From Antitrichia curtipendula (taxonomy: Eukaryota; Streptophyta; Bryopsida; Hypnales; Leucodontaceae), in assembly GCA_951230915.1 (NCBI GenBank), contig OX579635.1:47244001-47308000 (forward strand): a DNA stretch of 64,000 nt, read 5' to 3'. Below, piece by piece: positions 19,487 through 55,951 of this stretch (its first letter is position 1; each line of letters opens with the position of its first letter). Both the position numbers and the translations under genes were made by a program. The notes under the pieces were generated by a model, which saw nothing but the letters and a program-made list of their open reading frames with translations, searched no databases and was not told where the DNA came from.

Positions 19487-19513
19487 AAGGCCTTATTCAT
19501 TAAAATGAGACAA
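19487..19513. repeat. Left 27-bp terminal inverted repeat of the nested element
   Basis: Matches the inverse of 40812-40838 base for base. Preceded by the TTAG duplication at 19483-19486. Confidence 0.95.
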
Positions 19514-19997
19514 TTTGGCACATTTGAGACTTTGGAAATTGGGGTGTGAAGGTCCATTGTGGTAACAATTGTTGAACACAAAGGTAAATTACTCTGAACA
19601 TACAAAAAACAGAAAACAAACAAACCATGATCAGCCAAATGCGTCCAAGCAATTGAAGAGGGAAAAATATCGATTGGTGAAATGATGGGAAACTATTTTC
19701 ATTGTTCAATGCCAGAAACAATTGAGCGATCATCACAAAGCACCCAAACACATACTCAGTAAGTTTAATATTTTTCAAAAATTTTAATACACAAAAAGGA
19801 TGCAACTTTCACTGATGGTGTCAGCAAAATAGAACCAATGGTGTAAATGAGTAAAACCATGTGGGCAGTGGGGAGGCTTACTGTACATGAAGCTCCCTAA
19901 TTTTTGTATTTAATGTTAATCTGTACTTATTATTTACCACGCTTTAATAGTAAAGGATGCTCAGAAGCCAAAGGCTTCGAAAACTTTTTAGGCTACC
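19514..19997. other. Nested element left subterminal region
   Basis: AT-rich, no gene. The inner edge repeats the TTGAGAC/ATGAGAC word. Probably 3' flank of the minus-strand cargo locus. Confidence 0.5.
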
Positions 19998-20875
19998 CTA
20001 AACATCGTTATCGCCTGTACAATTACTCTTGGTTGCTTCCAACGCTTTCAACTTCGCCAAGCCCTTCAAAACATCCTCCCGTTGAGAACGATAGTGGGGC
20101 CCACCTGCCCCGACCATCCCACTAGGGAAGCCCACACTCTGCGAGCCATCCTCTTTTCGCTTCCTAATTCGAATGTTTGGAGAAACCTCGGATGTAGAAT
20201 GAGATTTGGCCCCCCCACGAGGCGGCCTTTGAACCATTGTAGCGACATCATTTACGTACGGTACTCTAGATCCAATTGACTTTGAGTCGAGAGAACAACA
20301 TTGGTCTCTGATAATCCTCTGACGGAAAAGCGAATCAGCTGAGGCGATCGCTTAACCCCCACAGACAGCGAAGCACGAGGATCAAAATTCGCAATTTTTG
20401 CCCCAACTTCAACACTTCTCGTGTACCCAACTCGAGCGCAGGGGGCTGTCATCTCATCCATATGCGAACGTGCGAGGGTTTTCGGATGGATATCCTCGTC
20501 TTGAGGATCCATGCTGCCCCCGCTGACGGTCAGGTCTAGCTTCCGACTGGTCCCAGCCTCATTGCGTGGAGCCGGCGAGAAACAACACCCTTGAGCCGAG
20601 GACAACCGCTTCAACAGGGACGGTGAGCAGATGGGAGTCCTTTCAGGGCCGCGACTAGAGGGGCTGTCAACGGCGCCGTCCTCGACGTCCCCCTTCGAGA
20701 AATCGATGGCCGCAGACGTTGCGTCCTGTGCTGTGCGCATCATGAGCGGGCCTGAAAACACAGAGGGCTTCATGCTCCCCCCACCGGATTCGGAAAGCGA
20801 CTTCTGGGATCCGGAAAGGAGACTCCTTGTGAGCCCGTGTTGGTTATGCAAGGCTCCAGCAACTGGAGCGTCTAC
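19998..20875 (-). CDS. Cargo locus: low-complexity C-terminal exon(s), function unknown
   Basis: After an acceptor (CGTACAG, 20876) an open frame runs to 20252 (VDAPVAGALHNQHGL, SGPLMMRTAQDATS, KRSPQLIRFSVRGLS). A second frame covers 20237-19998 (MVQRPPRGGAKSHS, RKRKEDGSQSVG, EDVLKGLAKLKALEA). The composition is GC-richer than the flanks, as in the rest of the cargo locus. Serine, proline and charged residues dominate. I recognise no domain. It may be the tail of the FCP1-like gene upstream or a separate gene. The frame change near 20250 is either an intron or a frameshift. Confidence 0.45.
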
Positions 20876-21076
20876 CTGTACGAACACAAGAGTAGAGATG
20901 TCTTGCAAGCATCAACCCTCCAACAAGAGCACGAAGATCAGCATCACAATCCGAATGCAGAATGAGACACGTAGAAAATATGACTATGTCAAAATCCAAA
21001 TTGAATTTATTATTTACAAGTGAAATTCCTGTACAATATGTACACACTACAAAATTGTCTTCCGGTCCGGAGAGAT

Positions 21077-21908
21077 CTACGTCCTACGCCCGCCGGGCTC
21101 TATCACTAAATTAAACGCCGGAAGTTCAAACCGCGAACCCACATTTCGGGTGGACTCTCTCATCCCATGGACTATCCCACGGACCACCTTGGACAAAAAA
21201 GCAAGTGGGTCTCTGCCTATCCGATTCACTGACACATATTCTCGGAGGCCACTGGGTTCGCACTCGGATTCTAGACGCGAAAGCCACGGCAGGAGATCTC
21301 CCATGAGGAAGTTGTCCAGCCGTTGCGGGTGGCGCCAGGAGCGGAGGAATATGGCGTTGCCCTTCTCATTGCAGACACTCTTCTTGGGAGAGTCATCGAT
21401 GAGAAGGGTATTGTCCGCTGTGAAGGATACATCCCCACCCGACATGGAGAAGATCTTCTCCGAGAGCACCTTAAGAAACACGGGCTTCGACCCATCGTGA
21501 AGAAACCGACCCCACGTGGTTTCTATTTGCCGACAGTGCTCCTATCTGAGGACTTCAAAAGGGGCCCTGTTTCCCTTGAACAGGAATTCCGCCACCATCT
21601 CAGTAGTCGAAAGCTTCATCGAGGACCACACTACAACCCTGGCCGTGATCTGCGAGATATCGTGAAGGAATTCCCGCAGATTTGGCCTGCCAAAGACCAC
21701 TTTCGGTCCAATGATGGTGGGATTCATGTGGCAAAGTATATTTTGTTCGACACTATATGGCTTAAATTTTTTTAGCGTACGATCTTGACTCGCACTGGCA
21801 CAAGATTCCGTTTAGGTCGAACACAATATTCAGCCACTTTCCCCTCGGTTCGGGCACTACTGGAGAGACACTTCGCGGCACGATCTCTCCGCGTTCCACC
21901 GATTCTAC
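21077..21908 (-). pseudogene. FCP1/NIF-like HAD phosphatase, broken
   Basis: After an acceptor (TTTCATCAG) the product reads PEPRGKWLNIVFDLNGILCQ. DLNG is the variant HAD motif I seen in plant NLI-interacting-factor-like phosphatases. Then VVFGRPNLREFLHDI, ARVVVWSSM (motif II region), IETTWGRFLHDGSKPVFLKVL, and NTLLIDDSPKKSVCN (motif III) followed by NAIFLRSW, DNFLMGDLLPWL. The order and spacing are those of an FCP1-like catalytic domain (Ser/Thr phosphatase or related). Two breaks are visible: a 1-bp shift in a run of A near 21773, and an in-frame TAG at 21542-21544 where relatives have Gln in 'VLxQEHC'. Position 2 of the DxD motif is Asn, so catalysis would be atypical. It lies downstream of the ParB/methylase-like exons on the same strand. 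Confidence 0.8.
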
Positions 21909-22573
21909 CTGATGAAAGCAAGACAACAAAGAAATGGAGTTACTTGTTTGAATGCAAAGTCAGGTGACCCAGACAACGGAACGGAGCACTGAAATCCACT
22001 AATCCATTGCTTGCTCCCCTTAGGAAGGGCTTTGACGGGCATCGGGCGATGCAAACCAACAGTAATGTTTGGCTGAGTAAAAAAGACAGTGTCAACAGAG
22101 TACAATTAGATCGACGCATCTACCAAAATACTGCATGTCTATTTTTATTTACAAGAAAAATAATATACATAATCGCATACAACGCTGTCATTCGAGAGCG
22201 GAACTATTCGCATGGCACTACTACGCTATACTTCTCAAGACGGTGATTGCTGGTAGGAGTGTCTTTCGACGCCAAACTATACAGGAGGACCCTCCTACCA
22301 AACAAAATACGTATTGTATGAGTGACTAGCACTACGGAAACGAGGGACCTATACATCGATCAGGTACACCATGTTCAGTTTTACCCTCGACTCGAGGCTA
22401 ATCCATTACAAGTCATTGAGATATGTGTTTAGTGTCAGCGTTAGTGGATTAGACAGCAAATGCATTGTCCGGGCTCAAGAGGGAGTCATATGGGTCAGGG
22501 GATTGTACCTGTCCGGCTACTTCGTCTTCTTCCCGGACGTTGTCGAGGATGATGTCCTCTTTGTCACCGTAGT
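21909..22573. other. Intron-like region of the cargo locus with a 21-bp palindrome
   Basis: Contains a palindrome copy at about 22380-22402 and a coding-like minus-strand stretch (YGDKEDIILDNVREEDEV) ending at a CAGGTAC donor near 22510. It links the coiled-coil exon to the FCP1-like exon. Confidence 0.45.
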
Positions 22574-24280
22574 CTACACGATCGAGCTCTGGCGATCGCT
22601 GAATCGGTCCAGTCCCCTCCCGCCCGGATGCCGGACGGGGAAAAATGCTGCTGCAGCAACCCCATGATCCTCAGCCAGCAGAGCAGCATCACCGATCTCG
22701 ACTTCAGAAACTCCCGTCTGTGATTTACCCTCGACTCGAGGGTAAACGCCAGCAACAACTACGCTGGATGAAGGAGGAGCCACTGGAGCCCCTGTAACTC
22801 TGACGTCAGCCCTCAAAGCCGAGGTATCTGGCATTAGATCGGGGAGTTCATCGGCTGGTGTGGACGCCACGATGTCTTCACCAGACGGAGGGTCTTTGGT
22901 TGGAGTACCCTCGTGTCAAAGATCCGACATGCCCGTGACCAAGTCCCATACCTCCTCCGACAGGTCCAGCGCGGGGCCAGCCTGAGAGGGTACTTGACTT
23001 TGCGTGGACTGGGAATGCTGTTGGCTCGGAACGGACTGCGACTGTGACGCGGCCAGGGCATGCTGGCTGGCAAAGAAGGCTTCCATTAGCTTGGCCATGA
23101 TGTCCATCTGCGCCTGCGTCTTCTGCGTTTGTTCCTTCAACTCCTCGCTAATCCGGAGGGCCTCAACAATCTGCTTGTCCTTCGCCGCCAGCTGATCCTT
23201 CATGGCCTTATTCCTTGCATCCTTCTTCGCCCTCCGCTCCATCTTGGCCTCGTGCCACCCGGTCTGGATTTTTCCGGGGATTGGAGTAGGGGGGACCTCC
23301 TCGGCTTCCTCGACCGGGTCACCGGCGCTATCGGTGTCGTCGTAGTCCGAGGTGTGCAAAAGCGAGTCCGAGTCGACGTCGCTCAAGTCCACAGTTGGAC
23401 GCTCGACCTTGGACTTTAATTTCGCTCCCTTCCTCGCCGTCTTATGGCGACGTCGTTGACCGCCTGAGGAGGACTTCCCCATAGCCTTCCTCTTGTCTTT
23501 GTGACTAGCGCGTGCCCGCTCCTTTTGCTGCTGCTCGACGAACTCAGAGTCAGTCTCCACGTCCTCCACCGCCAAATTGGGAATCTCCGCAGGGCCTCGA
23601 GGGATAGCCTTCCATCGCTGGATGTCAATCGTGTTCGTGCCGTACTCGTCGATCCCTTCCATTCCCACATCCGATTCCCTGCGAGCAGAACCAGGTAACA
23701 GCACGCCCTCCATTTCGGTTGCCCGATGAATACCAGACGATGTCGCTGCAGCAGTCGCGTGCCTTGGCGGGATAACTTTCTCTTGCGCATCCCCCTGATC
23801 ACGCTCACGTAACCCTAGGTCTTCATCGGTATTCCTCTCGACGGATCTCGGGGATCTGGCGTCCCCTCCCGAGTTTCTTTTATGCTAAGCGGGTGTTAAT
23901 TCAACATCATGACTTCTACGATGTTGTTCCTCGGGACCCTCATCGTTATCGGATGAGTTCCTCCGACCGGGTAGAGGGAGGTCGTCGTCTCCGTCACCGC
24001 CCAACGAGTCCTCCTCGTCCGATCCATCAGACTCTCTTTCTTCCGCGTCCTGTGATCCCTCCGGACTGCTTGGAGGAGAAAGCAGTTCCCCAGCTGTCGG
24101 GGGGGAGACGGAAACCAACACCGGCGCCTCCACGTACAGTGGTCTCAGATACTGCGCTGAGTATGGTGAATTTGAGTGGAGAAAGTCATTCATGTCCAGG
24201 TACGCACTTGATTTTGTGTACGCCCTATGCCTCGCGGTCAATGACTTCTCAACCAGGCCGTAGTAGTATGACCCATATAA
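22574..24280 (-). pseudogene. Cargo locus: end of methylase-like domain plus acidic and coiled-coil tail
   Basis: After an acceptor (TTGTTCAG, 24281) one reading frame runs about 1.7 kb with two stops, TAG at 23885-23887 and TGA at 22916-22918. It begins LYGSYYYGLVEKSLTARHRAY, which continues the methyltransferase-like motif of the exon upstream. It then passes through acidic segments (DAEERESDGSDEEDS) and a basic nuclear-type patch (RRRHKTARKGAKLKSK). A Lys/Glu-rich coiled coil follows (KMERRAKKDARNKAMKDQL...EELKEQTQKTQAQMDIM) and then a Gln/Ser tail. A 21-bp palindrome at 22724-22745 is embedded in frame (AGVYPRVEGK). Frame continuity across both stops suggests a recently inactivated or read-through gene. 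Confidence 0.65.
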
Positions 24281-24523
24281 CTGAACAAGTAATAAACAAA
24301 CAGGTGTTAGTCGACAAGGCATACGGATAAATAGCCTCGACTTGAGGTTACAAGGTAATGTCACCAGACATCATCCCTCATTACATACTGAACATCGATT
24401 CATCACATAAACAAGTTATCCTCGACTCGAGGGTAAATGGTAATCCCTACGGCAACCAATAAATTTTGCGGAAAGCGTTTCATGAAATGATAGAAGTTAC
24501 CTTCGAGTCGAGGGTAGACATAC
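24281..24523 (-). other. 243-nt intron with three 21-bp palindromes
   Basis: Minus-strand donor GTATGT (24518-24523) and acceptor TTGTTCAG. Palindromes lie at about 24497-24517 (just inside the donor), 24416-24437 (middle) and 24331-24350 (towards the acceptor). Confidence 0.7.
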
Positions 24524-25849
24524 CTTTGCAGCCATGGCACACTTGGCCCCTGCGAAAATGCCCAGGACGTTTTCATTCCGTACTGCGAAGCACTGCAGGA
24601 TTTGAAGGTAAAACTCCATCCGCAGTTCGCTTGCGTAGATTCTCCACTTGGCCTCGTTGTTGTATTTGGCCTCGTTGTAGTACAAAATATCTGCAGGGCG
24701 ATATTCTACCACCACCCTGTCGCGGACAGCATCCGCATGACAGTCACCTCTTTTAAAGAGGAACAGCATACGAACGTCTGGGGCCACTCTCAAGTGATTA
24801 GACACGTTGTCTAGTCGCTCCGCCCTCGATGGCAGGTACACCGACTTCACGATGTCGTAGTCCGGCATGTCCACCGTCGCGAAGTTGAGTGCAGCGTCAA
24901 AGTCCTCGTCGCCGCCTAGAATCCAGAGCCAAACGCTGGCCTCCTTGGCATCTGGCTCTAGTTTTGTAGTCATGTACTCGAGAAACGGCAGAAGACTCGA
25001 CGTGTTCTTGTTTACAGCTGGCCTTTCCATATCCCGGACGTCCAGAATGGCGAGTTTGAGGGGACGGTTTACGTATATGTACATCTGCGTTTCCACTTGC
25101 ACTCGAGCGCGCGCGTCTAGTCCACGGAATTCGAACCCTCCAGATTGTTCACCAAGTCGATACTTTGACTTCATGAATCTCTGGAACATTGTGGCCTCGT
25201 CCGAGAACTTGTCGCCAAGGTCTTTTGCCCTCTTCAGCTTGGCGTCGTTTGTTAAGCGTTTACTGAAGAACGACGGCTTCGGGTAGGAGAGTAGAAAATC
25301 CTACGTCGTCGATGAGAATAGGTGCCTCTTCTTCTAGGACCTCCAGACATCAAGGATGGTGTCATTATTCTCGTTGCGCAGTTTGAGATCGGATTTGACT
25401 GACATCATCTCCTCGTGAATGATTTTCTTCTTCTTCCTGCGCTCCACCCAATCCTGTGCCGTCTAATTATCCGGCACAAGATACTTTGTCTTCCCGACTG
25501 ATACTTTGGGATGTTTGTGCCGGCGGTCCTCTGTCAAATTCAGCAAATGTCTAGCGAAGACCTCGAGGTCGTGGTCCGTGAAGTGACCAATATGCTTGAA
25601 GAATTCCCTCTTCAACGCAAACGACTTGCGATTGAAGTCGTCCATGTCCCGGAAGAGCTGTCGAGTGACCGGTTCGATAAGCTCGCCCTCTGGGTACTTG
25701 GTGAGAAAATCCTTCCACAGCTTCCAGATATCATCCCGCAGCGTGATGATCTTAATTTCGCTCTTCAAGTCCAGGGGGGCCTTGATATTCTTTCCTTCCT
25801 TCTCAGGGTTGATATTCTGGAATCGCTTCACAACTGCGTCCGAGAAGCT
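24524..25849 (-). pseudogene. Cargo locus: DNA methyltransferase-like exon
   Basis: One minus-strand frame spans the exon between an acceptor (CTTGCAG) and a GTATGT donor. It has Lys/Glu-rich helices first (VVKRFQNINPEKEGK, DDIWKLWKDFLTKYPEGE). It then has LKLAILDVRDMERPAV, NFATVDMPDYDIVKSV, VRMLFLFKRG and finally RNENVLGIFAGAKCAMAAK. The last motif, continued in the next exon by LYGSYYYGLVEKS, resembles the 'NVLDxFxGxGTTxxAAxxxGxxxxGxE' SAM-binding motif at the C-terminus of beta-class N4/N6 amino-methylases. DMPDYDI may be a degenerate DPPY motif. An in-frame TAG sits at 25463-25465, and further TAGs near 25357 and 25303 lie in a stretch where another frame (VLEEEAPILIDDVGFSTLLP) looks coding, so frameshifts are likely. 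Confidence 0.55.
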
Positions 25850-26047
25850 CTGCAAGACCATCCACACTGTGACATTAAAACACCTCATCTACCTTCGTCT
25901 CGAAGCTAATCAAGCATCTATTGCTATTGACATTGATGACCAACTTCGTGTTCTGCAGCAAGCTAGTATTACGTTGCCTGCAGGACCCTAACAAGAAACC
26001 GTAGTATTAGCCTCGACACGAGGGTAATGGTTTAGAAGGTAGTCTAC
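25850..26047 (-). other. 198-nt intron flanked internally by two palindromes
   Basis: The minus-strand donor AAG/GTAGAC lies at 26042-26047 and the acceptor CTTGCAG near 25850. Palindrome copies lie at about 26006-26028 (donor side) and 25889-25912 (acceptor side), about 95 bp apart. Confidence 0.6.
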
Positions 26048-27478
26048 CTTCCACTTGGCCTCGCTCAGGACAGATGCATTCCTCCTCCTTACGGGATCCT
26101 CGGCAAAGAGTGTCGGTCGAAGGCAATTGATCCAGACATTCCGGGAGCTAATGACTTGGCTACCCCACGTCGGCTGAGCGTGGTTGAGGTGATTCGTCGA
26201 GTTGTAGAACTGGGAGATGTTCACCAACTTCGACGCATCCAGGGTCCAGACAATGTACGCTTCCCACGTCCTGAGTTCCTTACGGCGTTGCTCGCTGCAC
26301 TTTTCCAACTGCAGGTCTTTGGATGCTTGCACACTGTGTTGACCGTTGATGATCATGAACTTTCCCTTTTTGATATCCTCCCATCTCTGCGGCGGCTCCT
26401 TGAGCAAGCGGTTTTGATTGTCCACCGGCGTAATACAAAGCCGTTGTCGCTCTCTGATATGACCAAGGGCGATCAAGTTGCGCTTCACGGTTTCCGTAAT
26501 CTTGTCCTCCATTCCCCGGATGACGTACTCGTCTCTTGCTTTATGGCACTGGTTGATGTGGACGATTTTTGGATCTTCTCCAAGTATGTAGCAGGCCCGG
26601 TGCTCCGCCCAGAAGTCCCGCTGAATGAGCCCGAACTTATCTGCTACATCCATTGGGGCCTCGGAGTCTGAGGTCTGTGCAACATTCGTCAGAGCTGATC
26701 CTGAACTTCCGGTAGCCGCAGCAGCTTTCGATTTCTGATGCTTATTTGTCCCGTCACCTACCGCCGCACCTCCCGACTGAGTTTTGGCTCGTTTCCGGGA
26801 TTCTGATTGGACCTGCCCCTGTCCGCTTGCGCCGCTACCGGACCCTGGTGGCGCTGACAGGCTTCTTTTTGCCCCTACAAGCTCTTTCTGTTTCTTTCGC
26901 TGCGAACCGAGATGTGGGCAGGGCTTCACGGTCTTTACCGCGTGTTTGTCCAGCGCAATCCAGATGTTTAGGATTCTGTGGGTCATTGTCGTGGGCGGGC
27001 CTTCTGTCCAAGGCAGATATTTTGCCGTCTTGAATGTCTGGATCAGGTAGTCAACCTTTGCATCCTCCAGGAATCTTTCGATCTCCTGCTTGTCAAACCT
27101 TGCTCCGGGTCCGACTCCGTCCACAACAATGGAGTGCATGTGATCTCCGTCACTGCCGTCTTCGTTTACTTCCTGTAGCACGATCACCATATATCGCTGG
27201 CAGACACACTCAATGCGCGACACCTTCTCCTGCTGATGCTAGACGAAGAAGTTCCTCGTGGTTATCGTCTAGTATCGGAGGTGGACAAAGTCCTGAAACC
27301 GGTTTATACCAAATGACCACTTAGCAACATTCCCCAAAATTGCCAGAGTTTCCTGCACGACTCCTTGTCGTCATCAAGGAACGGCTCGCCCTCAACAGAA
27401 TTGTCGAACGGTTCCATAAAGTGCTGTGTCATTTTGTAGTCGTAGGATTCATCTCCTGCCATCTTCAGGTACTTGTTC
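26048..27478 (-). CDS. Cargo locus: ParB/DGQHR-like domain exon
   Basis: An intact 390-residue frame runs from 27223 to the donor at 26048. The upstream part (to an acceptor near 27479) is coding-like but switches frame (MAGDESYDYKMTQHFMEPF, ILGNVAKWSFGINRFQDFVHLRY). The protein has RYMVIVLQEV and HMHSIVVDGVGPGARFDKQEI near its start. A Lys/Ser/Gly linker follows, then PKIVHINQCHKARDEYV, and GKFMIINGQHSVQASKDL at about 26325-26370. INGQHS followed by a helix is the ParB/DGQHR-type signature. ParB-like domains fused to N4/N6 methylases are known in phages and bacteria. This exon lies just upstream of a methylase-like exon on the same strand. Function in plants is unknown to me. Confidence 0.6.
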
Positions 27479-27837
27479 CTGCGAAACCAATGTGTTGTTA
27501 GTTTACCCTCAACTCGAGGCTATTGTCTAAATAAGTAATCGTGACATTCGTCCATGTGCTTATTCTGGTTTCTGTTTCGATAGTTGTTGATTCTTGTCGA
27601 CCCGTGGGCGCAACCTTCTTTTATGTGTTCTTGGGTGTCGTGATCCTCGGAAGTTCAGGTCACCTTACCGTATTATGGTGTACCGTTTGCTTACTACATA
27701 AAGGTGGTGGCTGCGTTCTTGTGCATGACGATATTGGACAGAGGAGATGGTTTGCATTTACTAACACGGACCTCCTAGGATCTTCGAGTTGTTAATGGGA
27801 CATGGTTGCTACAGTTTACCTTCGACTCGAAGGTAAT

Positions 27838-28003
27838 CGGGTTGTGCTCTCATAGATTGCGGATAGTGGTTCTTCAGGTTCGGACCTTTCACTGCTTTGC
27901 TGCGGTACCCTCCGCGTAGAGGCTTCTGTGTGGCTTGTGTTTGGCTTCTGTCTGTCTTCTGTTCGGCTTTCAGACTTTGTCTGTAATTGGCAGCCTTGGC
28001 CAT
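27838..28003 (-). CDS. Cargo locus: putative first coding exon
   Basis: A short frame starts MAKAANYRQSLKAEQKTD and runs about 55 residues, rich in Lys, Arg and Gln, to a 21-bp palindrome at 27814-27837. The palindrome's AAGGTAAAC could serve as a splice donor. Another palindrome (28003-28026) lies directly upstream of the ATG. It precedes the ParB-like exon on the same strand, so it may be the start of that gene. No domain is recognised. Confidence 0.4.
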
Positions 28004-28350
28004 AATTAGCTTCGTCTCAAGGGTAACTAGAGAAATCTTTGCTACCTATTACCTTCGACTCGAAGCTAATCGGACGGCTCTCGTGGTTTTGGGTGTTGTC
28101 ATGTCTTAGGTTAGGATTCTACTATGTTTGTCTTTATTACCTTCGACTCAAAGGTAAACCAGTTGGACTGAACATTTGCTTCTTCTAGGCATTCGGGATA
28201 CGTAATTCCTTGACGGTTTCGATTTTTGCAAATCACTGATATAATTACCCTCAAGTCAAGGCTAATTACCCTCAAGTCGAGGCTAATTACCCTCAACTCG
28301 AGGGTAATTAGGCTCGGTTCGAGGGTAATTAGCCTCGAACCGAAGTTTTA

Positions 28351-30199: not shown

Positions 30200-31080
30200 A
30201 CTGAAGACATAGAATTTCCTGTCAAATTTAACACTAATTTTGAAAGAAACTACAATACAATAGAATATAGAAGTTGGAAATATCTTCAAGTACGTGAAAG
30301 TAAATAAAAACTTAATTTCTAAATCACTTCAATCCGCTTCTACAGAATACCAAAAAACTGAACAAAAAAGAACGAACATATACTTTAATGATGTGAAAAA
30401 TCAAATGTCATAGAATTCCATTTTGAAAGCGAGTTGAACCAAATCGTACAAGTTAGAAATATCCCCAAGTATTTGAATAACCACAAATATTAAATTCATG
30501 TGTAATTGCAATCCACACGCACGTGGATTCAAAAAAATATATATTAAGGTTGAACCTGTACTTTAATGGTGTGAAAAATCAAATGTCATAGAATTCCATT
30601 TTGAAAGCGAGTTGAACCAAATCGTACAAGTTAGAAATACCCCCAAGTATTTGAATAACCACAAATATTAAATTGAAAGGTAATTGCATCCAACCGCACC
30701 TCAAATCAAAAAAATATAGAATAAGGTCGATCTTGTACTTTAATGGTGTCAAACATCAAATATCATAGAATTCTATTTTGAAAGCGACTTGAACCAAATC
30801 GTACAAGTTGGAAATACCCCCAAGTATTTGAATAATTACAAATACTAAATTCATATGTAATTGCAAGTCACACGCACGTGGATTCAAAAAAATATAGAAT
30901 AAGGTCGAACCAGTACTTTAATGGTATCAAACATCAAATGTCATAGAATTCCATTTTGAAAGCGACTTGAACCAAATCGTACAAGTTGGAAATACCCGGC
31001 CTCAAGTATTTGAATGACCACAAATACTAAATTCATGTGTAATTGCAATCCACCCATACATCAATCTAGAAATAATTGGA
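30200..31080. repeat. ~178-bp tandem repeat, four clear units plus a degenerate one
   Basis: The marker TACTTTAATG occurs at 30381, 30559, 30736 and 30914 (periods 178, 177, 178). Each unit also has TCATAGAATTCCATTTTGAA and ACCAAATCGTACAAGTT. A degenerate unit precedes the first at about 30200. The period is nucleosome-sized and resembles centromeric satellites, but it lies inside a transposon. Confidence 0.88.
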
Positions 31081-32954
31081 ATGTTAAAAGTAACCTGTGC
31101 GAGACCTGAATGTCTGTTAATACTAAATGTCATAGAAATTGATGTGACAATAATTAGTGTCTTTCATATTGGAATATCTTTGCATTAATTTTGTAATGTC
31201 ATGCCTTGATTTGTATAGGCAGACTTTGTTCTTATAAACCCAAATCTCAAATTTGCTTCAAGTGTAGGGAAGTTAAATTCATTGTAATAAAAATAATTTG
31301 ATCTTGAAGTGGGAATTGCTTTAAAATGACCGATGATAGATTTCCATGTCTTTTTTTTTTGCAAGAGTATGCTTTAAATAGGAATGACATTGAATATGAA
31401 ACTGACAGAGGATGTTTTCTTAAGATTTTAACAAATTCATTGGAACCATTATTTTAGTTGGAGGTTGAAATATTAATTTGGATTTGTGAAAAAGATTCAC
31501 ATGTTCATTTACACGTGGTCCATGGTTTTGGGAAAGTTAGTTTATAGCTATTTAGCACTTTTAAACATAGTTCTACTATAGTCAATAAAATTATTACCTT
31601 CCTATCTTGTGCACATTTTTTTGAGAAGTCCCCGGAGTATCTTGTTTAACTAAAATCCTAAACTCTATTTTTTGGAGGCAGACGCTAAAACCTATAATTG
31701 AACTCATGAACCCTACATTCTAAAACATGACCTCTGAACATCCACTGAATTTGAGAGTTCCTTTAGTTGAGACATAAAGAATATGAAATATTCTAAAGTG
31801 AAATAAATAGCCAACATGCGTAAAAATAATTCTAAATTCGCATGAACTTCTCAATATCTTTTGGACACAATCAAAATAAATAAATTTAAACTTGTAAGGT
31901 AGGACTCAGGTTCCAAAGTGGTGCAGGCTTGAAAATGAAGCCCTACCTTTTAAGTGTGCATTGTCTGTACATTTTTTTTTCCATAGCCCTTATAAATGTA
32001 CAGATAGTGTACATTTTACACGGGCAACTTTAGAGCCCTATGCCCGTCCATCTTCAAAATTCCGTATTTAATTCCGAAAAGCTCAAAAAAATGTGAAACG
32101 ACTTGGGTTATATGCCAAATCCACTTCTCTTTCAGGTAAAGTTCACTGAAAATTATTTCAAAAAGTTATATGTTCCCCTATTTCAATTCCAGATCTTAGG
32201 TGGGTGGATTATGGACCTGCTATCTTAGTCATATACAGAATGTCAACGATCTCACAAAAAGCGGCTAGAGAATGTGGAACCCATGTTCCATCATGCTGAG
32301 TGCGCATAATCTTTGGAAAAGGCACTCCAGAAATAGTTGTGGGAGAAGTCTCCCCGGGGACGCGGCTCCTTTTCATTTATTGCAACGGAATGTAAGGAAA
32401 AGTCGTGCATGATAAGGATAAGCACAGCCTGCGCGCAAAATTGGAGTCCGTTTGAATTCAAGAATGTGGCGCGCTATTCTTCCCGCGTCTTCTTCCCGTC
32501 TTCTTCCCTCTAGCTTGCACGCTTAGCTCGGATCGCTCACGGCGATGGAGGCGTTTTGCAGTCATTCTCGTACTTGTTGTTGTTCCTTCTCCACCTGACC
32601 AGATGAGAGCAGAGATGCATAGATTTCGAGACTTACGTCCGTGTTCGCTGTTTCTGGCACTTGCAAGCGACTTGTGTACATCTAAGCAGTTTTCGTAGTG
32701 AAGAATGGCCTGTAAGGAAATCCTGTGTCTTTTGTAAGGTTGTTTTGTCTACATTTTGCGATATTGTTCATGTATTTGCATTTTTCAACACTTCATTGAT
32801 ACGAAATGACAGATGCACGTCTTATTGAATTCCTCTACTTATGTTTGTGGTAATCTGTGATTGCGCCTTATATTGTATGTTTGCGGCGTTGTCAATATAA
32901 TTCATGAACTGTACCGATTTTTACGCCGTGAATTTCTAAGCGAGGTTACAAATT
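31081..32954. other. AT-rich spacer, probable upstream region of the DUF7869 gene
   Basis: No gene seen. A GC- and CT-rich patch at about 32340-32560 may be the promoter or 5' leader of the plus-strand gene; this is inference only. Confidence 0.35.
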
Positions 32955-33275
32955 CCATATTATCTTTGACTCGAAGGTAATGTAGGTGTAGCGTTGAACC
33001 ATCACCATTTACCCTCGAGTCGAAGGTAATGTAGGTGTAGCGTTGAACCATCACCGTTTACCCTCGAGTCGAAGGTAATGTAGGTGTAGCGTTGAACCAT
33101 CACCGTTTACCCTCGAGTCGAAGGTAATGTAGGTGTAGCGTTGAACCATCACGTTTACCCTCGAGTCGAAGGTAATGTAGGTGTAGCATTGAACCATCAC
33201 CATTTACCGTCGAGTCGAAGGTAATGTAGATGTAGCCTTGAATCAACACCGTTTACCCTCAATTCGTAGGTATGA
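32955..33275. repeat. 49-bp tandem array, each unit with a 21-bp palindrome
   Basis: TTTACC marks unit starts at 33008, 33057, 33106, 33154, 33203 and 33252 (periods 49, 49, 48, 49, 49), with one further degenerate unit before. The spacer is GTAGGTGTAGCGTTGAACCA. Single palindromes follow at about 33318, 33573 and 33708. The array lies about 0.75 kb upstream of the first DUF7869 exon. Confidence 0.92.
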
Positions 33276-34021
33276 AAGGGAAGTGGAGTGTTGTCGTCGG
33301 AATCCACAGTGTGCTGAATTTACCTTCGTCACGAAGGTAATAAATGGAAGCTACAGTTATGCTATATATATTCGGGTGACAATTGAATATTGTGTACAAC
33401 AGAGGAAATCGAGAATCCTGATATTAGGATTTGGTTCGTCTGCTAATTTTACTTCGGCTGAGGGGTAGTATGATGACTGTTCTTTTTTATCTTTAAACAA
33501 TGTAGGTTTAGAGGGGCGTCTCATGGAAATGTCTTCAATAAGTAATTTGTATTGTTTAGTTCAATGACATGGTAATTTACCTTCGAGTCGAGGGTAATTG
33601 TTCTGTGGTACTGAGTGTCAATGACCTCTACTATGTTGCTCGTATGTGGCTCTGGAATAAATTCCTTTGTTGGTTTTGTGGCGCTCCTTAGTAATGTTGA
33701 ATTTACCTTCAACACGAAGCTTAGTTGGTGTTGGCTTCCTACTATAGTACTGGTTATGCCTCCTCATTGTAGATCAAGTTTGTGACTGCTGGTGTGTGGG
33801 CTAGATTTGGCTGTACTTATTATTGCAGTGGCCGTACTAGATGAGAGGATTGATGAGTGGAATGCGATTACGTTATGACTGTATAGGGTCAATATGACAA
33901 GTACATTTTCTTGTATGTATGTTCTTGTGGAAATCATGTATTTTCGTGTCGAAGATGAGTACTATGAAATCATCGTTACTTGGCGGCTTCCAATGACTTG
34001 TGCTTGTTTTTGTGCTCGTAG

Positions 34022-34081
34022 GATGGACATCCATGGTCTCGACAATTTTGCTATCCCTATTCCAATTTTGGCTTCGGATGT
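34022..34081 (+). pseudogene. DUF7869 gene, first recognised exon fragment before the LTR insertion
   Basis: After a possible acceptor (GTGCTCGTAG, ending 34020) the frame reads MDIHGLDNFAIPIPILASDV and stops being meaningful at the LTR-like insertion. Its last five bases, GATGT, are repeated at 37476-37480. With the insertion removed the frame continues as VDCDGIPRSSWNTKCV. I treat this ATG as the probable start, though earlier exons are possible. Confidence 0.6.
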
Positions 34082-34386
34082 TGTCGCAGTCCGAATTTTT
34101 GGTTTTCAGTTGTTAATCTAGAAAACGGAACGGAAACTATCGATTAGTATGTAGGCTTTGTCTAGAAACAGCAGAGGACGGAAAATTAGGAAAGACATTG
34201 AAATAGTGGAGTAGTTTGAACGAATCCAATCCTAGTGGTGACACCCAGGAACCGGATTGGAATCGGATCCTTGTCCGGAAGTAGCAGTGGACCGGATTGG
34301 GGGTATAGAACCGGATTAGGGTTAGACCGGATTGGTGGGACCGGATCGGTAAATGTCATCATGACGAATTTTAGGTTAGGAGAGAC

Positions 34387-34394
34387 TATAAAAG
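34387..34394 (+). promoter_or_regulatory. TATA box of LTR-like copy 1
   Basis: TATAAAAG within GAGACTATAAAAGCCC, about 305 bp from the left end and about 260 bp before the first ATG of the frame. The equivalent site is present in copy 2. Confidence 0.6.
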
Positions 34395-34654
34395 CCCAGG
34401 ACCTCCTCAGTCACTCCCCATTTCCAAACGCTGTTTGGTGAGAGTATTTTTGGCGCTCCTCGTTTTCAAGTGTTGTGAGCGTGCGCGTATTTGTGTGAGC
34501 AGTAGAGGTGTGCTGCAGGGTAGGTTTCCGGTTGCGTACCGATCGCTGTGCAGGTTTCCGGTTGAGATCGGAGAGAGAATGTGAGAACGTGACGTGCGGC
34601 TAGGACTGTGTGAGGTAGAATCGGAAAGGACTGTCTTAGATCTAGTCTGTGTCC

Positions 34655-36293
34655 ATGCCGCAGCTTAGGCGGAACAGACCAGGCCCATCCACGTCGTCGG
34701 CTCCGGTCAAACTCCGGAAGGTTGTTCCGGTTCTCCCTTCGACAGAGGAGGAGATGGAGATGCTCCGGTTGGATCTCAACCGGATGGGGTGCCAGGGTTT
34801 GCTCGACAAACCCTGGGGTTTTAAAGGACGAGCGGATGGTGAAGGAGATCCAGGGGAAGTGGACAAACCAGTTCGACAACACGATCCGCTGTGTTCCACA
34901 TCAATGGACGGAAGAGATCTGGAGGGAGGTTTATAAGTTCCGGGCAGGAGGCCATGGGATGGCAAACCGGAAGGACGAGTACGTCCGGGGCAAGTTCTGA
35001 GGAGCGGTCAACCCCAAGGACGGATACGCGGTGGAAGACTGCATCGACGACCGGCACCGGAAACTGTTACAGTTTTTGATCCCGATCCTCCATCCGGAGA
35101 AGCCGACAAGGGTGACAATCACCCTCGGCAACACTATTTTCGGTGCCCTGAGCGGTGACCGGAAAGCGGACTGGGCCCGGATCATGTTCGATCTGGTGGC
35201 CCAGTTGGCGACGAGGGTCGGAAGGAGTAGGCCGACACCCGTGTGTCCCTACCTCTTCCACCTCTATGAGCAACACCAGCTCCTTTTAGACTCGGAAGAG
35301 AAGGAGTGGAAGGCCCAGGAAAATCTCCTGAAATACGGAGAATCGGAAACGGACGAGGAGGAAGAGGAAACCGGATCCGAGACCGAAGAAGAAGAAGAAG
35401 ATGAAGAAGAGGCGGAGAGGCAGCCCAAGCGGCACAAGACGAATTCTCCGACCGGAAGAGGATCTCCACTCGGTGATAAAACCAGAAAGGAGAAGACACC
35501 GGAAGGGGAGAAGACAGGCTGTTCAAAGAAGGGACCGGTCGACCCGTTCGAGAAATTGGTGAAGATCCTCGTCGACATCCGCACGGACTGGGAGGCGAAG
35601 AGAATCGCCCTACACCAGATCGGAGAGTTGGTGCAGGCAACACTAGATAGCAAGTTGCCAGGGAAGGTAGCGGAGTGCATCACCAATCCGGTCGAGATCC
35701 GGAAGCAGGAAGCGGAGATCCGTCGACTTCAAGAGGAGGTCGACATGTTGAAGGCGGAAGTGGCCACCTTCAAGGAAGATATGGCCGCCACCCGGATAAT
35801 GGCGGACGAGACGCAGAAGGTGGCGGAATCGGTGAAGGCGACTTTCGGTGAGACCGGAAGCGTGGCAGTCAGGGCCAGACTCTTCGATGAGAAGGTCTTG
35901 GAGGAGAAGAAACTATCCGGTACCCGGATAGTCCGGATCCTGACTGACTTCACCGAGCAAGTGGAGAAGAATTTGGTCTTGGCACGAGGAGCGGCGGACC
36001 GGATGGAGGAGTGTATACAGAAGCTGACCGGATCGATGAGGGTCCACCTATCGGACATCTCCATGCCGGAATCGTTTCCGGAAGTGCCAGACCCAAGGGA
36101 AGGAAGGGACCAGACTCCGCAGTCAAAGCCGAGTCAGCCTTCTCAGACCGCGCCGATCAACATCGAAGACTCTCCCGGTTCTGACATGCCAAATCCGATG
36201 GCCGGAGAGCGGAACAGGAACTTGGAAGAAGTCTTCGAGCAATTGGAGGCGGAGCCCAAAAGTCCTTCGTTGGGGCGCGGGATAGCGATGTAG
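34655..36293 (+). pseudogene. LTR-like copy 1: gag-like protein with coiled coil, frameshifted
   Basis: The frame starts MPQLRRNRPGPSTSSAP. It needs a +1 shift near 34818 (GGGGTTTTAAAGG) to enter VLKDERMVKEIQGKWTNQF, then meets an in-frame TGA at 34998-35000 and continues as a clean 420-codon frame (35031-36293). The C-terminal part has a helical segment (LLQFLIPILHPEKPTRVTI), a Glu-rich tract (DEEEEETGSETEEEEEDEEE) with a basic patch, and a long coiled coil (IRKQEAEIRRLQEEVDMLKA). This fits a structural (gag-like) protein, but there is no zinc knuckle and I recognise no named family. Both copies share the shift and the stop. Confidence 0.55.
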
Positions 36294-37480
36294 AATAAGT
36301 TAGGAAGGATAGGATAGGAACGGATCCGGATTAGTAATCCGATCCGGTAGTGTTAGGAGGACCAGAAGTTAGGATCCGGATTTAGGTTGACTTTTAACGG
36401 CTCTTTTTGCCTTTTGTTATTTTTGGAAGTTCTCAAAGTGTATATAATTTAGTCCTTGTGCTGAGGACTGGGAGTCTTTCCCTCTGCATCTTTCTTTGTG
36501 TTTTCTCCTTGTGCTTCTTTGTTGTACGATCTCCCATGTCTTGGCAGGATTGTGCGTGAGGGAGTTCGGAAGGCGCGAGCGGATGCGATGGGATTTCTCC
36601 CCTTGGTGTTTTCTTGGTTCTAAGTGCATGTGAGTGGATAGGATAGAGTTGGGAGTGAACTTCAGTGCCTCAGCGCGTCTAGAGTTTGAGATTCCGGGTG
36701 AGAAAGCCGTTGTTAGGCTAGGCGGATAGGGAGGGAGTCCTTAGTCGCGCTAGAACTCCTGGGTGAGAAATCCGGTTGAGTGTCCGATCTCTTGAGAGGT
36801 CTCACCATCTTAACAGTAAACGGAAGAATTCTAGTTGACGTTGGAATGGACGGGTGCACTTGTAACCGCCTTAGCTTCGCACGGAATAGAATGACATCAG
36901 GGTCGTTGTAGTATTGAGAGGATCGTACGGGGGGTCTTTGTGTGACCAGTGGACCGGATTGCAATCTGGATTGCTGTGAAGGACCAAACCGGATCCGTAC
37001 TAGCCTAGGAAGGAAGAGATTTGGAAAGTGGGTCTTCAGCCACTATAAGTCACGGAAGGTGTGGTGGGCCTACCACTCTCAAAAGCAAGCGGCGAACCCT
37101 CTGATGGCTAAACAGAGGTAAAACCAAACCGGATAGGAGAGGAAATGGTTGTGATTTGTCTAGAGCGGATTGGCCTAGACGGATACCCGGACCGGAAGAG
37201 ATAGGGTCCTGGGGTTGTGTTGGATTCGATAACCGGAAGACTAGCTGGAATTGGAAGATAGAAAGAATCCGGTCCTTTGTTTTCTGGGTGTTTTTGGTTC
37301 CGGTCATAGGAAGAGGACCGGAAAAGATGACTGTTGTCCCTGACTTGACTTAGTTCGTTAATAGAGTTAGATACTTCACAGAATCTCGTGGGTTTGATCT
37401 TTAGAGTCACTTTGTTATGCTTTAGAGTGGTTTTTGGGAGTATAACATGGGAATTGCTTATCCTGTGCTGCGACAGATGT

Positions 37481-38014
37481 TGTTGACTGTGATGGAATTC
37501 CTCGTTCGTCTTGGAATACAAAATGTGTTACTTTGCGTAACGAAGCTGGAAATGACGTCGCCAAAGGAATCTGTCGTAGCGTTGATGCCGATCTCGTCAT
37601 TGACAGTGATGGAAAGCCCCTTGGTGATGATCGTGTCGCTGTTCAAATTGCGGAATCATTATGTGAAATGGAGGTTCCATCAGCTTGGATGTGGTCAATG
37701 CGTTCCTGGCATATTGCGCGAGTATTTTTTAACGGTGTTAGCCTCTACGATCATCAACAAACAAATTTGTACAACACTGCTGTAAATGCTTCCAGTTGTC
37801 GTGCGCGTGTGGGAGTGCGCTCTTATGAGAGTTCTCGAGAGAGGAGGGAGCTTGATCTCCCTCCTAAAAAAGAATCCCTTCTCAGCACCCAATCGATTGT
37901 TGGAGTGTCCACTTTATCTTGTTGCTATAAGAATTGCTTGCAGCATTTCCCTTGTAGCGAAATTCAGACGATTCGTTCTGAATTGCATGTAACTGGTGGA
38001 GTGTATGTCCGCAA
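37481..38014 (+). pseudogene. DUF7869 gene, N-terminal part after the LTR insertion
   Basis: The frame entered from 34081 continues through WNTKCVTLRNEAGNDVAKG, DSDGKPLGDDRVAVQIAESL, EVPSAWMWSMRSWH and then CCYKNCLQHFPCSEIQTIRSE. The last motif is the Cys-rich 'CCxxxCLxxFxxxEIxxIR' start common to DUF7869 proteins. It runs to a TGA at 38012-38014. The sequence 38015-38078 still looks coding in other frames (SDAFLKRIGRSTKTK, then VGKEWIT), so two small frameshifts, or a short unusual intron, separate it from the long frame. Confidence 0.65.
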
Positions 38015-38078
38015 GTGATGCCTTCTTGAAGCGCATAGGTAGAAGCACAAAGACCAAGTAGGGAAGGAATGGATAACA

Positions 38079-40295
38079 TTGAAAAGTATTGATGTTTGCC
38101 TTCCTGCCTGGTGGACTATCCACGGGATATCAAAAGCGACCTTCTACAGGTTCAAGCGCATGGCTAATGATGGGAAGATAGCAGAGTCGCATGGGAATTT
38201 GGGGTCTAAGAAGCCACGCACACAGACTGTGCAAGCCACTGCCACACTTCGGACTTTGGTTGTAGGGCAAGCAGACAAAATGCCGCACAAATCGAGAACA
38301 TTAGCTTCAGGAGAGAAAGTACCCGCAATGGTTTTGTCCTCTGTGTTTCAATGGAGTGACCAACTACCAAAAATCAATGAAGCCAATGCCAAGTTCGATT
38401 TGCCGCCGATTTCTTCCAGTGGATTGAGTGGCATTCGACGTGCTTCTTTTCCTGAGTATTCTGCAAAGGCACGTGGGGACACTTTTGCAAGGTGTGGTCT
38501 ATGCGATACTTACAAGCAGTTGAGGAATGCTTGCACTCCATTGTCTACAGCACAGGGCAAGTGGGACAGAATTTTGAACACCCATCTTTGTGGACAAGAG
38601 GCCCACAGAGTATTGTACTATTCAAATCGATATGTGTCAGAGGAGTTTCCTGAAAAAATGTTGTGCATCATCCACGATAAAATGGATCACTCGAAGACTG
38701 CTTCTCCGCACTTCTCTCACAAGACCAAAGCAACAGATTCGTACATGAAATTGCCAGTTGCTGTCACCGGCATGATTGCTCATGGCCATGGCGACATTCA
38801 ATATGCATACTATGGGTTGGAGATTTTTCCTACAGACTCAAACCATATTGTTGGGTCTATTGCAAGGTTGTTGCGTGATTTTGAAGGAGTTCCGAAGAAT
38901 TCATCTCGCATTCTGTTTTCTACGGAGGACAACCAATCCCCTTTAATCCAAGCGGTATTGGAAGGTTCAAATATATGTTTGGACTCCCTTCTTCCTCCTC
39001 CACAGGAACCAATCGCTCATTGTCCTTTACCGCCTATATTGACTTTACAGCTAGACAATGCGTCTGGGGACAACAAGAACCGATGGGTTTTTGCTTTTTG
39101 TTCTTTACTTGTGTTCAAAGGCATTTTTCGTGAGATATACATCAACTTCCTCAATGTTGGGCATACTCATGAAGATATAGACGCTCTCTTTGGTCGATGG
39201 AGCACGATGTTGAAGATGAAAGACTACGAAACACTTCCTAGGCTTATGAAATCCTTCATGGATTGTGAAAGTCATCCCGTCATTCCTCACTTCATCGAGG
39301 AAGTTCCTGATTTTAAGCTATTTATGCAGGGATACTTAGGTACAGGTGGAGACTTCTTGGAAGGTCATTCTACGTCCCAGCAGTTCAAATTTTATATGGA
39401 TTCAAGTGGATGGCCTTTGATGGAGTACAAGAATTTGTGTACAGACAAGGACTGGTTGCCAGAGCATGATAGAGGGATTCGGTTGTGGTCTGAGACAGAA
39501 GACGGTCGTCCCAAAGTGCCAAGCGGAAGTCCAACACCTTTGGCTCCACAACAAATGCGGGCAGTAGGTGAAATCAAGAAGGGTTTGGATGGTTTTATTT
39601 CACACTGGAACAGAATGGCAAATATCGAAGAGTCTGGAGAGTTCAGGCTTCTAAATGGTCCCATAAAAGAGTATTGGAAGGGTGTGAGGGCGGCTTTAGA
39701 TAAACCTCTAGTGGTTCGTGAGACGTTGAAAGATGGATTTTGGCCGGCTTCTAGGATCACTGAAGAACCGGAGGACCGAATGCGAGAAGATGGTACAGTG
39801 CGTGAAGAATTTGCTCAAGATAGACCTTTTGTTGGGCGTAGGCGCGACCATCCTAGACCTTCATTTTGTATTGATAAGGATTTGTTTGCGGGATATTTTG
39901 TCGTTGTGCGACCCACTGATGATGACCCAAAGCCCTTCTGGCTTGCTAGAGCACTTACGAATCCGAATCCGGATCCGGGACATATGCATTTGATCCAAAT
40001 TCAGTACTGGACACCTACATCAGGTCGTTTCATTGACTTGGATATGTATGCTGGGTGGGACACAAAAGCAGGGAATGTGTGGCGTATGGATCGTATAATC
40101 CCTCCTTGTTGGTCAAACACGGACTGTATCATGACGGCATTCAAGCCACGTGGAAAGAAAGTGGTCGACAATATTCTTCAAGTGATTTCGAGAGTTACTA
40201 TTCCGAAGGCACAAATGAACATCATCAAATCATCAGTGGCAAACTTTATGCCAAATTGCAATAACGATGATGTCTTGGATGAAGATGAAGAGTAG
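38079..40295 (+). CDS. DUF7869-type protein, candidate RNase H-like transposase
   Basis: An intact frame of 738 codons; its first codon here is TTG inside a longer coding stretch, so this is not the true start. HGISKATFYRFK looks like a helix-turn-helix near the N-terminus. A CGLC/Cys segment (ARCGLCDTYKQL) follows. The core has IIHDKMDHSK (D200/D203), LQLDNASGDNKN (D326) and NVGHTHEDIDALFGRWS (E365). D326-x38-E365 spacing with the first aspartate upstream fits a DDE RNase H fold. The C-terminal third has FVVVRPTDDDPKPFWLARAL, a possible BAH/chromo-like segment, and ends in DDVLDEDEE. It lies inside the 27-bp-TIR element and is its best transposase candidate. DUF7869 membership is from motif memory, and the enzymatic role is inferred. 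Confidence 0.75.
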   Translation: MKSIDVCLPAWWTIHGISKATFYRFKRMANDGKIAESHGNLGSKKPRTQTVQATATLRTLVVGQADKMPHKSRTLASGEKVPAMVLSSVFQWSDQLPKINEANAKFDLPPISSSGLSGIRRASFPEYSAKARGDTFARCGLCDTYKQLRNACTPLSTAQGKWDRILNTHLCGQEAHRVLYYSNRYVSEEFPEKMLCIIHDKMDHSKTASPHFSHKTKATDSYMKLPVAVTGMIAHGHGDIQYAYYGLEIFPTDSNHIVGSIARLLRDFEGVPKNSSRILFSTEDNQSPLIQAVLEGSNICLDSLLPPPQEPIAHCPLPPILTLQLDNASGDNKNRWVFAFCSLLVFKGIFREIYINFLNVGHTHEDIDALFGRWSTMLKMKDYETLPRLMKSFMDCESHPVIPHFIEEVPDFKLFMQGYLGTGGDFLEGHSTSQQFKFYMDSSGWPLMEYKNLCTDKDWLPEHDRGIRLWSETEDGRPKVPSGSPTPLAPQQMRAVGEIKKGLDGFISHWNRMANIEESGEFRLLNGPIKEYWKGVRAALDKPLVVRETLKDGFWPASRITEEPEDRMREDGTVREEFAQDRPFVGRRRDHPRPSFCIDKDLFAGYFVVVRPTDDDPKPFWLARALTNPNPDPGHMHLIQIQYWTPTSGRFIDLDMYAGWDTKAGNVWRMDRIIPPCWSNTDCIMTAFKPRGKKVVDNILQVISRVTIPKAQMNIIKSSVANFMPNCNNDDVLDEDEE

Positions 40296-40811
40296 TTTGT
40301 AGCTGTATTAGAAGAGTATTATTTTTAGATCTTTGATTCTATACGCTTTTGCATTTAGATATTTTGAGTTGTTTGCAGTTCTATGTTGTATTGTTTTTAT
40401 CATAATGTAGCAATGATGTAACATACTTGATTTCTATTAATAGTATTTGTTCACCTTCTCTTTGCATTTTCATGTAGAGCATTTACATATGTTTCCCTAC
40501 TTTTATCTTGTGAAAGGTTTGTGATGGAAAGTGTTGTATTACAATCATTTAGAGTAAGGTTTTGGCACAAGCAAGTCTCAATTTAATGAAATGCTTCACT
40601 TCATAACTTTTTGGTCTCTTTTATTTCTTTATCTATTACGAAATAAAAATAAATAGAATGTTTATTGAGGGATGTAGCTTTTTTTTTTAGAACTATGTAA
40701 ATGTATTAAATCACAATTTATTTTATGTGAGTATCAATTTATTGAAGAGTCTCATTTTAATGAACACTAATTGTACTCTAAATATAGAATGCATTAAAAT
40801 GAGACCCGAAC
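40296..40811. other. 3' flank and right subterminal region of the nested element
   Basis: AT-rich. The TIR word GTCTCATTTTAATGAA recurs at about 40748, inverted at about 40793, and in diverged form at about 40577. These could be subterminal binding sites. No gene. Confidence 0.6.
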
Positions 40812-40838
40812 TTGTCTCATTTTAATGAATAAGGCCTT
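40812..40838. repeat. Right 27-bp terminal inverted repeat of the nested element
   Basis: Perfect inverse of 19487-19513, followed by TTAG at 40839-40842. Confidence 0.95.
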
Positions 40839-40842
40839 TTAG

Positions 40843-55943: not shown

Positions 55944-55951
55944 TATAAAAG
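55944..55951 (+). promoter_or_regulatory. TATA box of LTR-like copy 2
   Basis: TATAAAAG in GAGACTATAAAAGGCC, equivalent to 34387 in copy 1. Confidence 0.6.

Follow-up and report, generated by a model that had tools for sequence, protein, structure and literature searches.

A decayed giant moss transposon, probably Sola-type, carries a ParB-like gene and arrays of a 21-bp palindrome

The window, that is, the whole 64,000-nucleotide stretch of Antitrichia curtipendula DNA analysed here, contains a 21.35-kb element bounded by perfect 27-bp terminal inverted repeats (TIRs). Within these TIRs lie a DUF7869 candidate transposase gene and, on the opposite strand, a ParB-like/methylase-like gene and an FCP1/NIF-like gene, together with recurrent copies of a 21-bp palindrome (consensus TTASCYTCGASTCGARGSTAA in the window copy, core TCGASTCGA). 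The features are as follows.

19483..19486, unstranded: target site duplication TTAG, left copy, abutting the TIR
19487..19513, plus: left 27-bp TIR, exact pair of 40812-40838
21155..21842, minus: FCP1/NIF-like phosphatase-fold gene with DLNG motif; frameshift and stop in the window copy (PF03031, 8.2e-12, read through)
22381..22745, unstranded: pair of palindromes in the DNA separating the ParB-like and NIF-like genes
23889..24279, minus: following exon of the ParB-like gene, in which an SNSPYS motif is conserved and precedes an acidic low-complexity tail (comparison among copies)
24331..24517, unstranded: three palindromes, intron of the methylase-like part
24511..25849, minus: ParB-like gene continued, helical part and methylase-like part; three in-frame stops (matching part of copy C6, none)
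25889..26027, unstranded: pair of palindromes separating the ParB-like exon from the exon that follows; same place in other copies and in some relatives' open reading frame tails
26045..27462, minus: ParB-like exon encoding a PH-like N-terminal region, a disordered linker and the ParB domain, broken by a frameshift and two in-frame stops (45% to P0122, 87% to copy C6; fold of P0122)
27503..28328, unstranded: array of palindromes on the upstream side of the ParB-like gene, including a 21-bp tandem run that begins at 28245
32960..33723, unstranded: palindromes arrayed upstream of the transposase gene, chiefly in 49-bp tandem repeats
34023..34081, plus: start of the DUF7869 transposase gene (MDIHG...), severed from the remainder by the insert (comparison by eye with relative P0001)
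34082..37475, unstranded: nested insert foreign to the element, 3,394 bases, ends TGTCGCAG...CTGCGACA, 5-bp duplication GATGT
37476..40295, plus: main part of the DUF7869 transposase gene, two in-frame stops (PF25273, 4.1e-44)
40812..40838, minus: right 27-bp TIR, exact pair of 19487-19513
40839..40842, unstranded: target site duplication TTAG, right copy, abutting the right TIR

The exact TIR pair with TTAG at both ends and the plus-strand DUF7869 candidate transposase had both been read correctly in the first-pass annotation. To these we add the palindrome arrays, an insert nested within the transposase gene, and the breakage of all three genes. No third match to the 27-bp TIR was found in the window at up to three mismatches, and none in 100 shuffles. 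The element is inserted within a CACTA transposase gene, the left part of which matches Transposase_21 (1.2e-62); when the flanks are joined with a single TTAG, the CACTA frame reads through the junction uninterrupted, and one stop lies upstream of that point. The observed/expected CpG ratio reaches 0.92 for the element, compared with 0.64 for the remaining window, a contrast that we leave uninterpreted because the nested insert has 0.93 and the transposase part 0.72.

The main part of the transposase gene is 73% identical to P0001 across 37449-40265, stops counted, and the 3.4-kb insert that interrupts the gene has a 98% copy at 55638-59014 flanked by its own duplication, GAAAT. All three genes of the window copy are broken by stops or frameshifts, which identifies it as a decayed copy. 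The DUF7869 protein is best explained as the transposase of the element; a Foldseek search of its fold against the PDB returned nothing at E 0.001 or better, and we found no mention of DUF7869 in the literature searched. Three DUF7869 relatives turned up in a scan of genome contigs, on contigs of bacterial MAGs (L002 being nearly complete, residues 18-939, 47%); we take them as contamination. The FCP1-like assignment holds for a reading that passes over a frameshift and a stop (PF03031, 45.5 bits versus a curated 21.8); the intact-frame piece alone scores 17.3, under the cut-off. Its DLNG motif, present in 8/8 copies, occupies the position at which NIF/FCP1-like proteins usually have DxDG.

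The ParB domain is backed by fold, as relative P0122 gives ParB/sulfiredoxin fold matches, with no support from Pfam; the DGQHR reading is refined to a fold of ParB type carrying NGQHS. The C-terminal part is methylase-like by its motifs, and this portion of the earlier reading is retained without the backing of a profile: Pfam, NCBIfam and PHROGs gave no methyltransferase family match, neither phage tblastn nor sequence searches of the PDB yielded a usable match, and we set aside matches to RhoA and to arginine methyltransferases (the latter at E 0.05) as chance or as too weak. Neither scans of viral contigs nor a scan of genome contigs with the ParB-like alignment revealed a relative.

A genome search with the 27-bp TIR, as suggested in the first-pass annotation, found 273 + 264 = 537 places at up to three mismatches and none for the reversed control. 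Further copies were taken among the TIR matches listed from these places; among the 30 places examined, L025 and L026 overlap and several are ends of copies counted elsewhere. Seven of the eight further TIR pairs read contain, between the TIRs, the DUF7869 gene, the opposite-strand ParB-like/methylase-like gene and the FCP1/NIF-like gene, one of them being the 34,190-base C4 copy, of which 20,000 bases were read, and another copy, C7, including 200 N; wider-spaced TIR pairs (~48 kb on C2, ~36 kb on C5) lie outside the pairs read. The ParB-like/methylase-like gene lies opposite to the transposase within the same TIRs in 7/7 copies and in the partly read C4 copy. All eight gene-bearing copies have exact 4-bp duplications (TTAG, ATAC, TATA, GCTT, CTAC, TTTC, ATGC and CAAA), and the cargo is therefore part of the element, as had been proposed. 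TIR copies without genes, which the first-pass annotation held to be refuting, do exist: L051 is a gene-less 2.8-kb pair with no exact 4-bp duplication and no palindrome, and a gene-less 256-bp MITE with the same TIRs was seen twice. Because genes are present in every long pair read, we regard both as non-autonomous derivatives. A comparison of copies revealed purifying selection on the cargo genes; the window copy entered none of the sets for ParB, transposase and NIF, C10 was omitted from that for ParB, stop codons were skipped, and the transposase and NIF of C1b were compared over part of their length.

Each of seven copies contains 16-26 palindromes, and all 150 sites lie outside recognised exons, mostly within introns and in the stretches upstream of both main genes. 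The 42.6 kb of the window beyond the element contains none at up to two mismatches. The 256-bp MITE retains two, located ~40 and ~70 bp from the ends in the copy analysed. Two palindrome variants are split by ParB lineage and not by transposase lineage, in the one contrast available. Upstream of the ParB gene, the motif columns are 85.2% conserved versus 80.6% for their surroundings, a small difference. Among 69 ParB-like relatives, 35 were excluded (anchor not found, or tail shorter than 10 residues), and the palindrome at up to one mismatch was not found in the tails of 25 of the other 34; a stricter pattern gave nothing on these tails and the mismatch-tolerant one gave matches. Viral contigs yielded the palindrome in one 4-kb contig, about chance level by a rough estimate.

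KDZ transposons make 8-bp target duplications, and the 4-bp duplications in all eight gene-bearing copies led us to reject membership of that group. The Sola superfamily has 4-bp target duplications, TIRs of 11-1124 bp and lengths of mostly 2-9 kb with some above 15 kb, and occurs in the moss Physcomitrella (PMC10741241). Judged against this description, the moss element is probably Sola-type: its duplications and 27-bp TIR both fit, and its size is above most Sola elements. The view that elements with this gene set had gone undescribed is not supported, since the available text of PMC12477816 describes Sola1-1_Ec32 of the brown alga Ectocarpus, a 21.5-kb element with a ParB-like and methyltransferase protein opposite the transposase strand, and similar proteins from green and red algal transposons. 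By description, the two elements share their approximate size and the ParB plus methylase-type gene opposite the transposase, so that the moss element is a variant of a kind already in print. Sola1-1_Ec32 has a methyltransferase domain with a predicted N4C/N6A activity, whereas the moss methylase-like part lacks the usual motifs; 'FCP1' is absent from the main text of that report, and its available text makes no mention of a target motif (PMC12477816). Nor did the available texts of the literature searched give a target site for ParB-methylase transposon proteins.

Three other systems invite comparison. Bacterial ParB, Noc and KorB have a palindromic parS-type site repeated near the gene, and the moss protein shares with them the ParB/sulfiredoxin fold and a repeated palindrome nearby, but it resides in a eukaryotic transposon and carries NGQHS, and no ParA-like gene was noticed in passing. 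VANDAL elements of Arabidopsis are Mutator-like. Their anti-silencing VANC proteins have a short motif arrayed in introns and upstream regions that varies by family with the protein, that of VANC21 being a 9-mer arrayed in a single orientation (PMC5735166, PMC10398659). The moss element resembles them, as seen in its sequence, in its non-coding arrays and in motif variants that follow the cargo lineage (one contrast), and differs in its 21-bp palindrome and ParB-fold protein. In fungi, several DNA transposon lineages carry TET/JBP genes related to DNA modification and thought to aid escape from silencing; these encode demethylating dioxygenases and travel with other transposases, in contrast to the ParB-like/methylase-like cargo (PMC12730594).

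A ParB-like gene beside many copies of one palindrome suggests that the element marks its own DNA for self-control or self-protection. Our favoured reading, with a probability of about 0.5, is that the window holds the decayed remains of a giant Sola-like moss transposon that moved by cut-and-paste and whose self-acting ParB-like module works at the palindromes, controlling transcription and countering silencing. The ParB-like protein with its methylase-like C-terminal part would bind the palindrome in the promoters, introns and intergenic DNA of the element; binding would control transcription of transposase and cargo and counter host silencing, by analogy with VANC and the VANDAL motif arrays. 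The ParB fold may allow loading at palindromes followed by clamp-like spreading, and in the methylase-like part catalysis may have given way to DNA recognition. Weighing against this reading are the single phylogenetic contrast that links motif and cargo, the small margin of conservation in the motif columns, the lack of a convincing profile match for the methylase-like region, the 25 relatives' tails and the L051 pair in which no palindrome was found, and the broken state of every gene in the window copy. A more specific version is less likely than not: a eukaryotic parS-like transposon system in which a ParB-fold protein with a catalytically dead methylase recognises the dispersed palindromes, spreads and shields promoters from silencing, protein and palindrome co-diverging by family and gene-less MITEs profiting through the same sites.

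The palindromes might instead be transposase binding sites, internal counterparts of subterminal repeats, with another role for the ParB-like protein. One array adjoins the transposase gene, and gene-less MITEs keep two palindromes, as expected of sites required for mobilisation; however, full-length copies have internal sites that are also intronic and upstream of the cargo gene, the motif type tracks the cargo in the one contrast, and L051 bears TIRs with no palindrome, and we consider this unlikely. Somewhat less probable again is an active adenine or N4-cytosine methyltransferase marking the palindromes at GASTC or TCGA, the kind of self-mark proposed for the Ectocarpus protein. The core GASTC fits a GANTC-type site, and SNSPYS, whose NSPY is present in the exon after B/C in 7/8 copies, could be a variant catalytic motif. 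ParB plus methyltransferase proteins of like type have been proposed to bind and modify their own transposon (PMC12477816). Against this, the catalytic (D/N/S)PP(Y/F/W) is absent from exon B/C in 7/7 copies, in which the sole FxGxG-like string is FTGSG in C5, outside its expected place; GxxxG(A/P)K and LDVR(D/E) are conserved instead, profile matches are lacking as described above, some sites miss the central GASTC, and GANTC is not enriched in the element (4.8 per kb versus 6.2 per kb outside).

We think it improbable that the palindromes are host transcription factor or splicing sites acquired by the element with the cargo as passenger: locations within introns and upstream of both main genes would suit such sites, but the surrounding window lacks them, their two variants split by cargo lineage, and every long copy read retains the cargo under purifying selection. 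Delivery of the cargo by a separate insertion is effectively ruled out; the window copy does hold one nested insert, but this is an unrelated 3.4-kb element, and the same cargo recurs in seven further TIR pairs.

For ParB-methylase transposon proteins, action on their own element is already a published proposal (PMC12477816), and the palindrome arrays provide a concrete candidate target. If the self-acting module is real, it would add to VANC a further anti-silencing system of the plant lineage, built on a bacterial-type DNA clamp fold, and would give a reason why giant transposons retain such cargo. A motif type that shifts with the cargo lineage would, moreover, open the co-evolution of protein and site to testing.

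The transposon in the window, a decayed copy (W), carries a DUF7869 transposase and, on the opposite strand, a cargo consisting of a ParB-like gene with a methylase-like continuation and a NIF-like gene.

19487–40838: element, 21,352 bases, with perfect 27-bp TIRs and TTAG flanking either end
21155–21842, minus strand: NIF-like gene (PF03031, 8.2e-12), reading through one frameshift and one stop

The element is inserted inside a CACTA transposase gene, the left part of which matches PF02992 (1.2e-62). When the flanks are joined with a single TTAG, the CACTA transposase frame stays open over the junction; a single stop interrupts it further upstream. An AT-rich unit of ~178 bp is present in three to four tandem copies within the element (30365–31082). 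The window also holds two 3.4-kb elements, 98% identical and with TG...CA ends, at 34082–37475 and 55638–59014 (5-bp duplications GATGT and GAAAT); the former holds a 430-residue open reading frame, and self-comparison found no long terminal repeats in it.

A scan of the source genome (400,189,583 bases, 303 contigs) for the TIR with up to three mismatches revealed 273 + 264 places, versus 0 for the reversed pattern used as a control. From the first places listed we took facing pairs, comprising six complete pairs, a seventh (C4) represented by its two ends (20,000 of 34,190 bases covered) and one 2.8-kb pair. The transposase, ParB-like gene, methylase-like continuation and NIF-like gene are all present in all eight long copies (the seven long pairs and W), each with an exact 4-bp duplication whose sequence differs between copies, and the DLNG motif of the NIF-like gene is kept in 8/8. 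The covered piece of C4 shows transposase residues 16–603. Genes, palindrome and exact duplication were all looked for in the 2.8-kb pair (L051), and none was found. Two additional long pairs were located outside the eight-copy gene count. At 19 of the 30 best TIR places, some of which overlap and others of which are ends of long copies already counted, a transposase lies within 1.5 kb of the TIR, the span examined.

Comparing the C6, C10 and W/C1a/C7 lineages with one another gives dN/dS values of 0.07–0.14 for the ParB-like and methylase-like exons, 0.14–0.18 for NIF and 0.16–0.24 for the transposase, with copy membership varying by gene; cargo comparisons with C1b or C5 almost all show saturation at synonymous sites. 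The closest copies give higher values (0.27–0.85 for C1a versus C7), as expected for decay once inserted. For C6 versus C1a, synonymous divergence (pS) is 0.10 in the transposase but 0.24 in NIF and 0.35–0.37 in the ParB-like and methylase-like exons, and the parts of the element therefore seem to differ in history. The unequal divergence of the transposase and ParB/methylase-like parts in C6, C1a and C10 (L035–L041; pS 0.10 versus 0.24–0.37) is a sign of module exchange between elements.

The element is studded with a 21-bp palindrome, TTASCYTCGASTCGARGSTAA, of which all 24 window sites (up to three mismatches; 0.01 expected) lie within its borders; a 19-bp form (up to two mismatches) has 23 sites in the element and 0 in the rest of the window. 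The palindrome's degenerate positions mirror each other and allow few bases, mostly C/G at position 7 and C/T at position 5 from the centre. Seven copies contain 23, 23, 26, 24, 17, 16 and 21 sites, versus 0–0.2 in simulations. Recognised exons take up 30%, and none of the 150 sites falls within one. The sites are concentrated upstream of both the ParB-like and the transposase genes, with further clusters in two introns and ahead of the NIF-like gene. A point against the palindrome evidence is that, at the sites upstream of the ParB-like gene, palindrome columns are only a little more conserved than other columns (85.2% versus 80.6%). A tandem satellite at 1–9000 (spacing 139 and 72 bp; CpG observed/expected just 0.19) has a unit containing the palindrome-like TTCACCTCCACTCAAGGTGAA, and two related units lie near 51 kb, at about 50876–51031.

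The form of the palindrome differs between copies. The first form predominates in W, C1a, C6, C10 and C7 (23, 22, 24, 19 and 18 sites, versus 1–4 of the second), whereas the second form, TATCKTCGASTCGAMGATA, predominates in C1b (14 versus 5) and C5 (12 versus 0). In the ParB-like exon the nearest copy to C5 is C1b (pN 0.306 versus 0.38–0.39), as it is in the methylase-like part (0.278 versus about 0.34), whereas the C5 transposase is nearest to the first-form copies (0.12, versus 0.21, over 499 codons, for C1b), and the palindromes adjoining that transposase are of the second form. The motif form in C5 matches cargo kinship rather than transposase kinship; although a single contrast, this points to the cargo protein as the putative reader of the site.

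Palindromes also persist in MITEs carrying the element's TIRs.

L054:101–356: MITE locus, 4-bp duplication CTCT
L010:1501–1760: MITE locus, 4-bp duplication TTCT

One MITE, 256 bp long and flanked by a 4-bp duplication, has TIRs that are nearly identical, altered at one end, and retains two second-form palindromes, one perfect and one near-perfect; a second copy (85% identity) retains two, both altered. Among relatives in public data, open reading frames continuing beyond the ParB exon yielded 34 usable tails from 69 proteins, and 9 of the 34 encode the TTANNNTCGASTCGANNNTAA form (up to one mismatch); shuffled tails give 0.44 and protein-body pieces 0.1.

Within the 120 listed of the transposase's 201 relatives, the named ones belong to Ceratodon purpureus and Physcomitrium patens, so the host is probably a moss. 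A locus filed under a cyanobacterial MAG (L002) codes for a moss-like DUF7869 transposase that is almost complete (residues 18–939, 47% identity, no stop) and is probably contamination. Three contig sizes, including 46,150 bases (P0005 and P0126), are common to the DUF7869 and ParB-like relatives (112 and 69 compared), which suggests that the two proteins share contigs in other genomes too.

The first-pass annotation knew of no described element with this gene set. PMC12477816, however, describes a Sola1 element of 21.5 kb that carries, on the opposite strand, a 1,104-residue ParB-like and methyltransferase protein, and it refers to similar proteins from green and red algae; the gene set is therefore of a kind already known. 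That paper also suggests that such proteins act on their own transposon by binding and modifying it. Our literature search, which covered few subscription papers and neither of the two algal works cited there, brought up no paper recognised as describing the gene set in a moss or a target palindrome. In the likeliest mechanism, the ParB-like protein would bind the palindromes of its own element and thereby alter that element's transcription and silencing, and it may act through spreading and anti-silencing. The nearest working parallel is VANC, whose motifs, according to PMC5735166, are arrayed within introns and upstream regions of VANDAL elements and vary from family to family.
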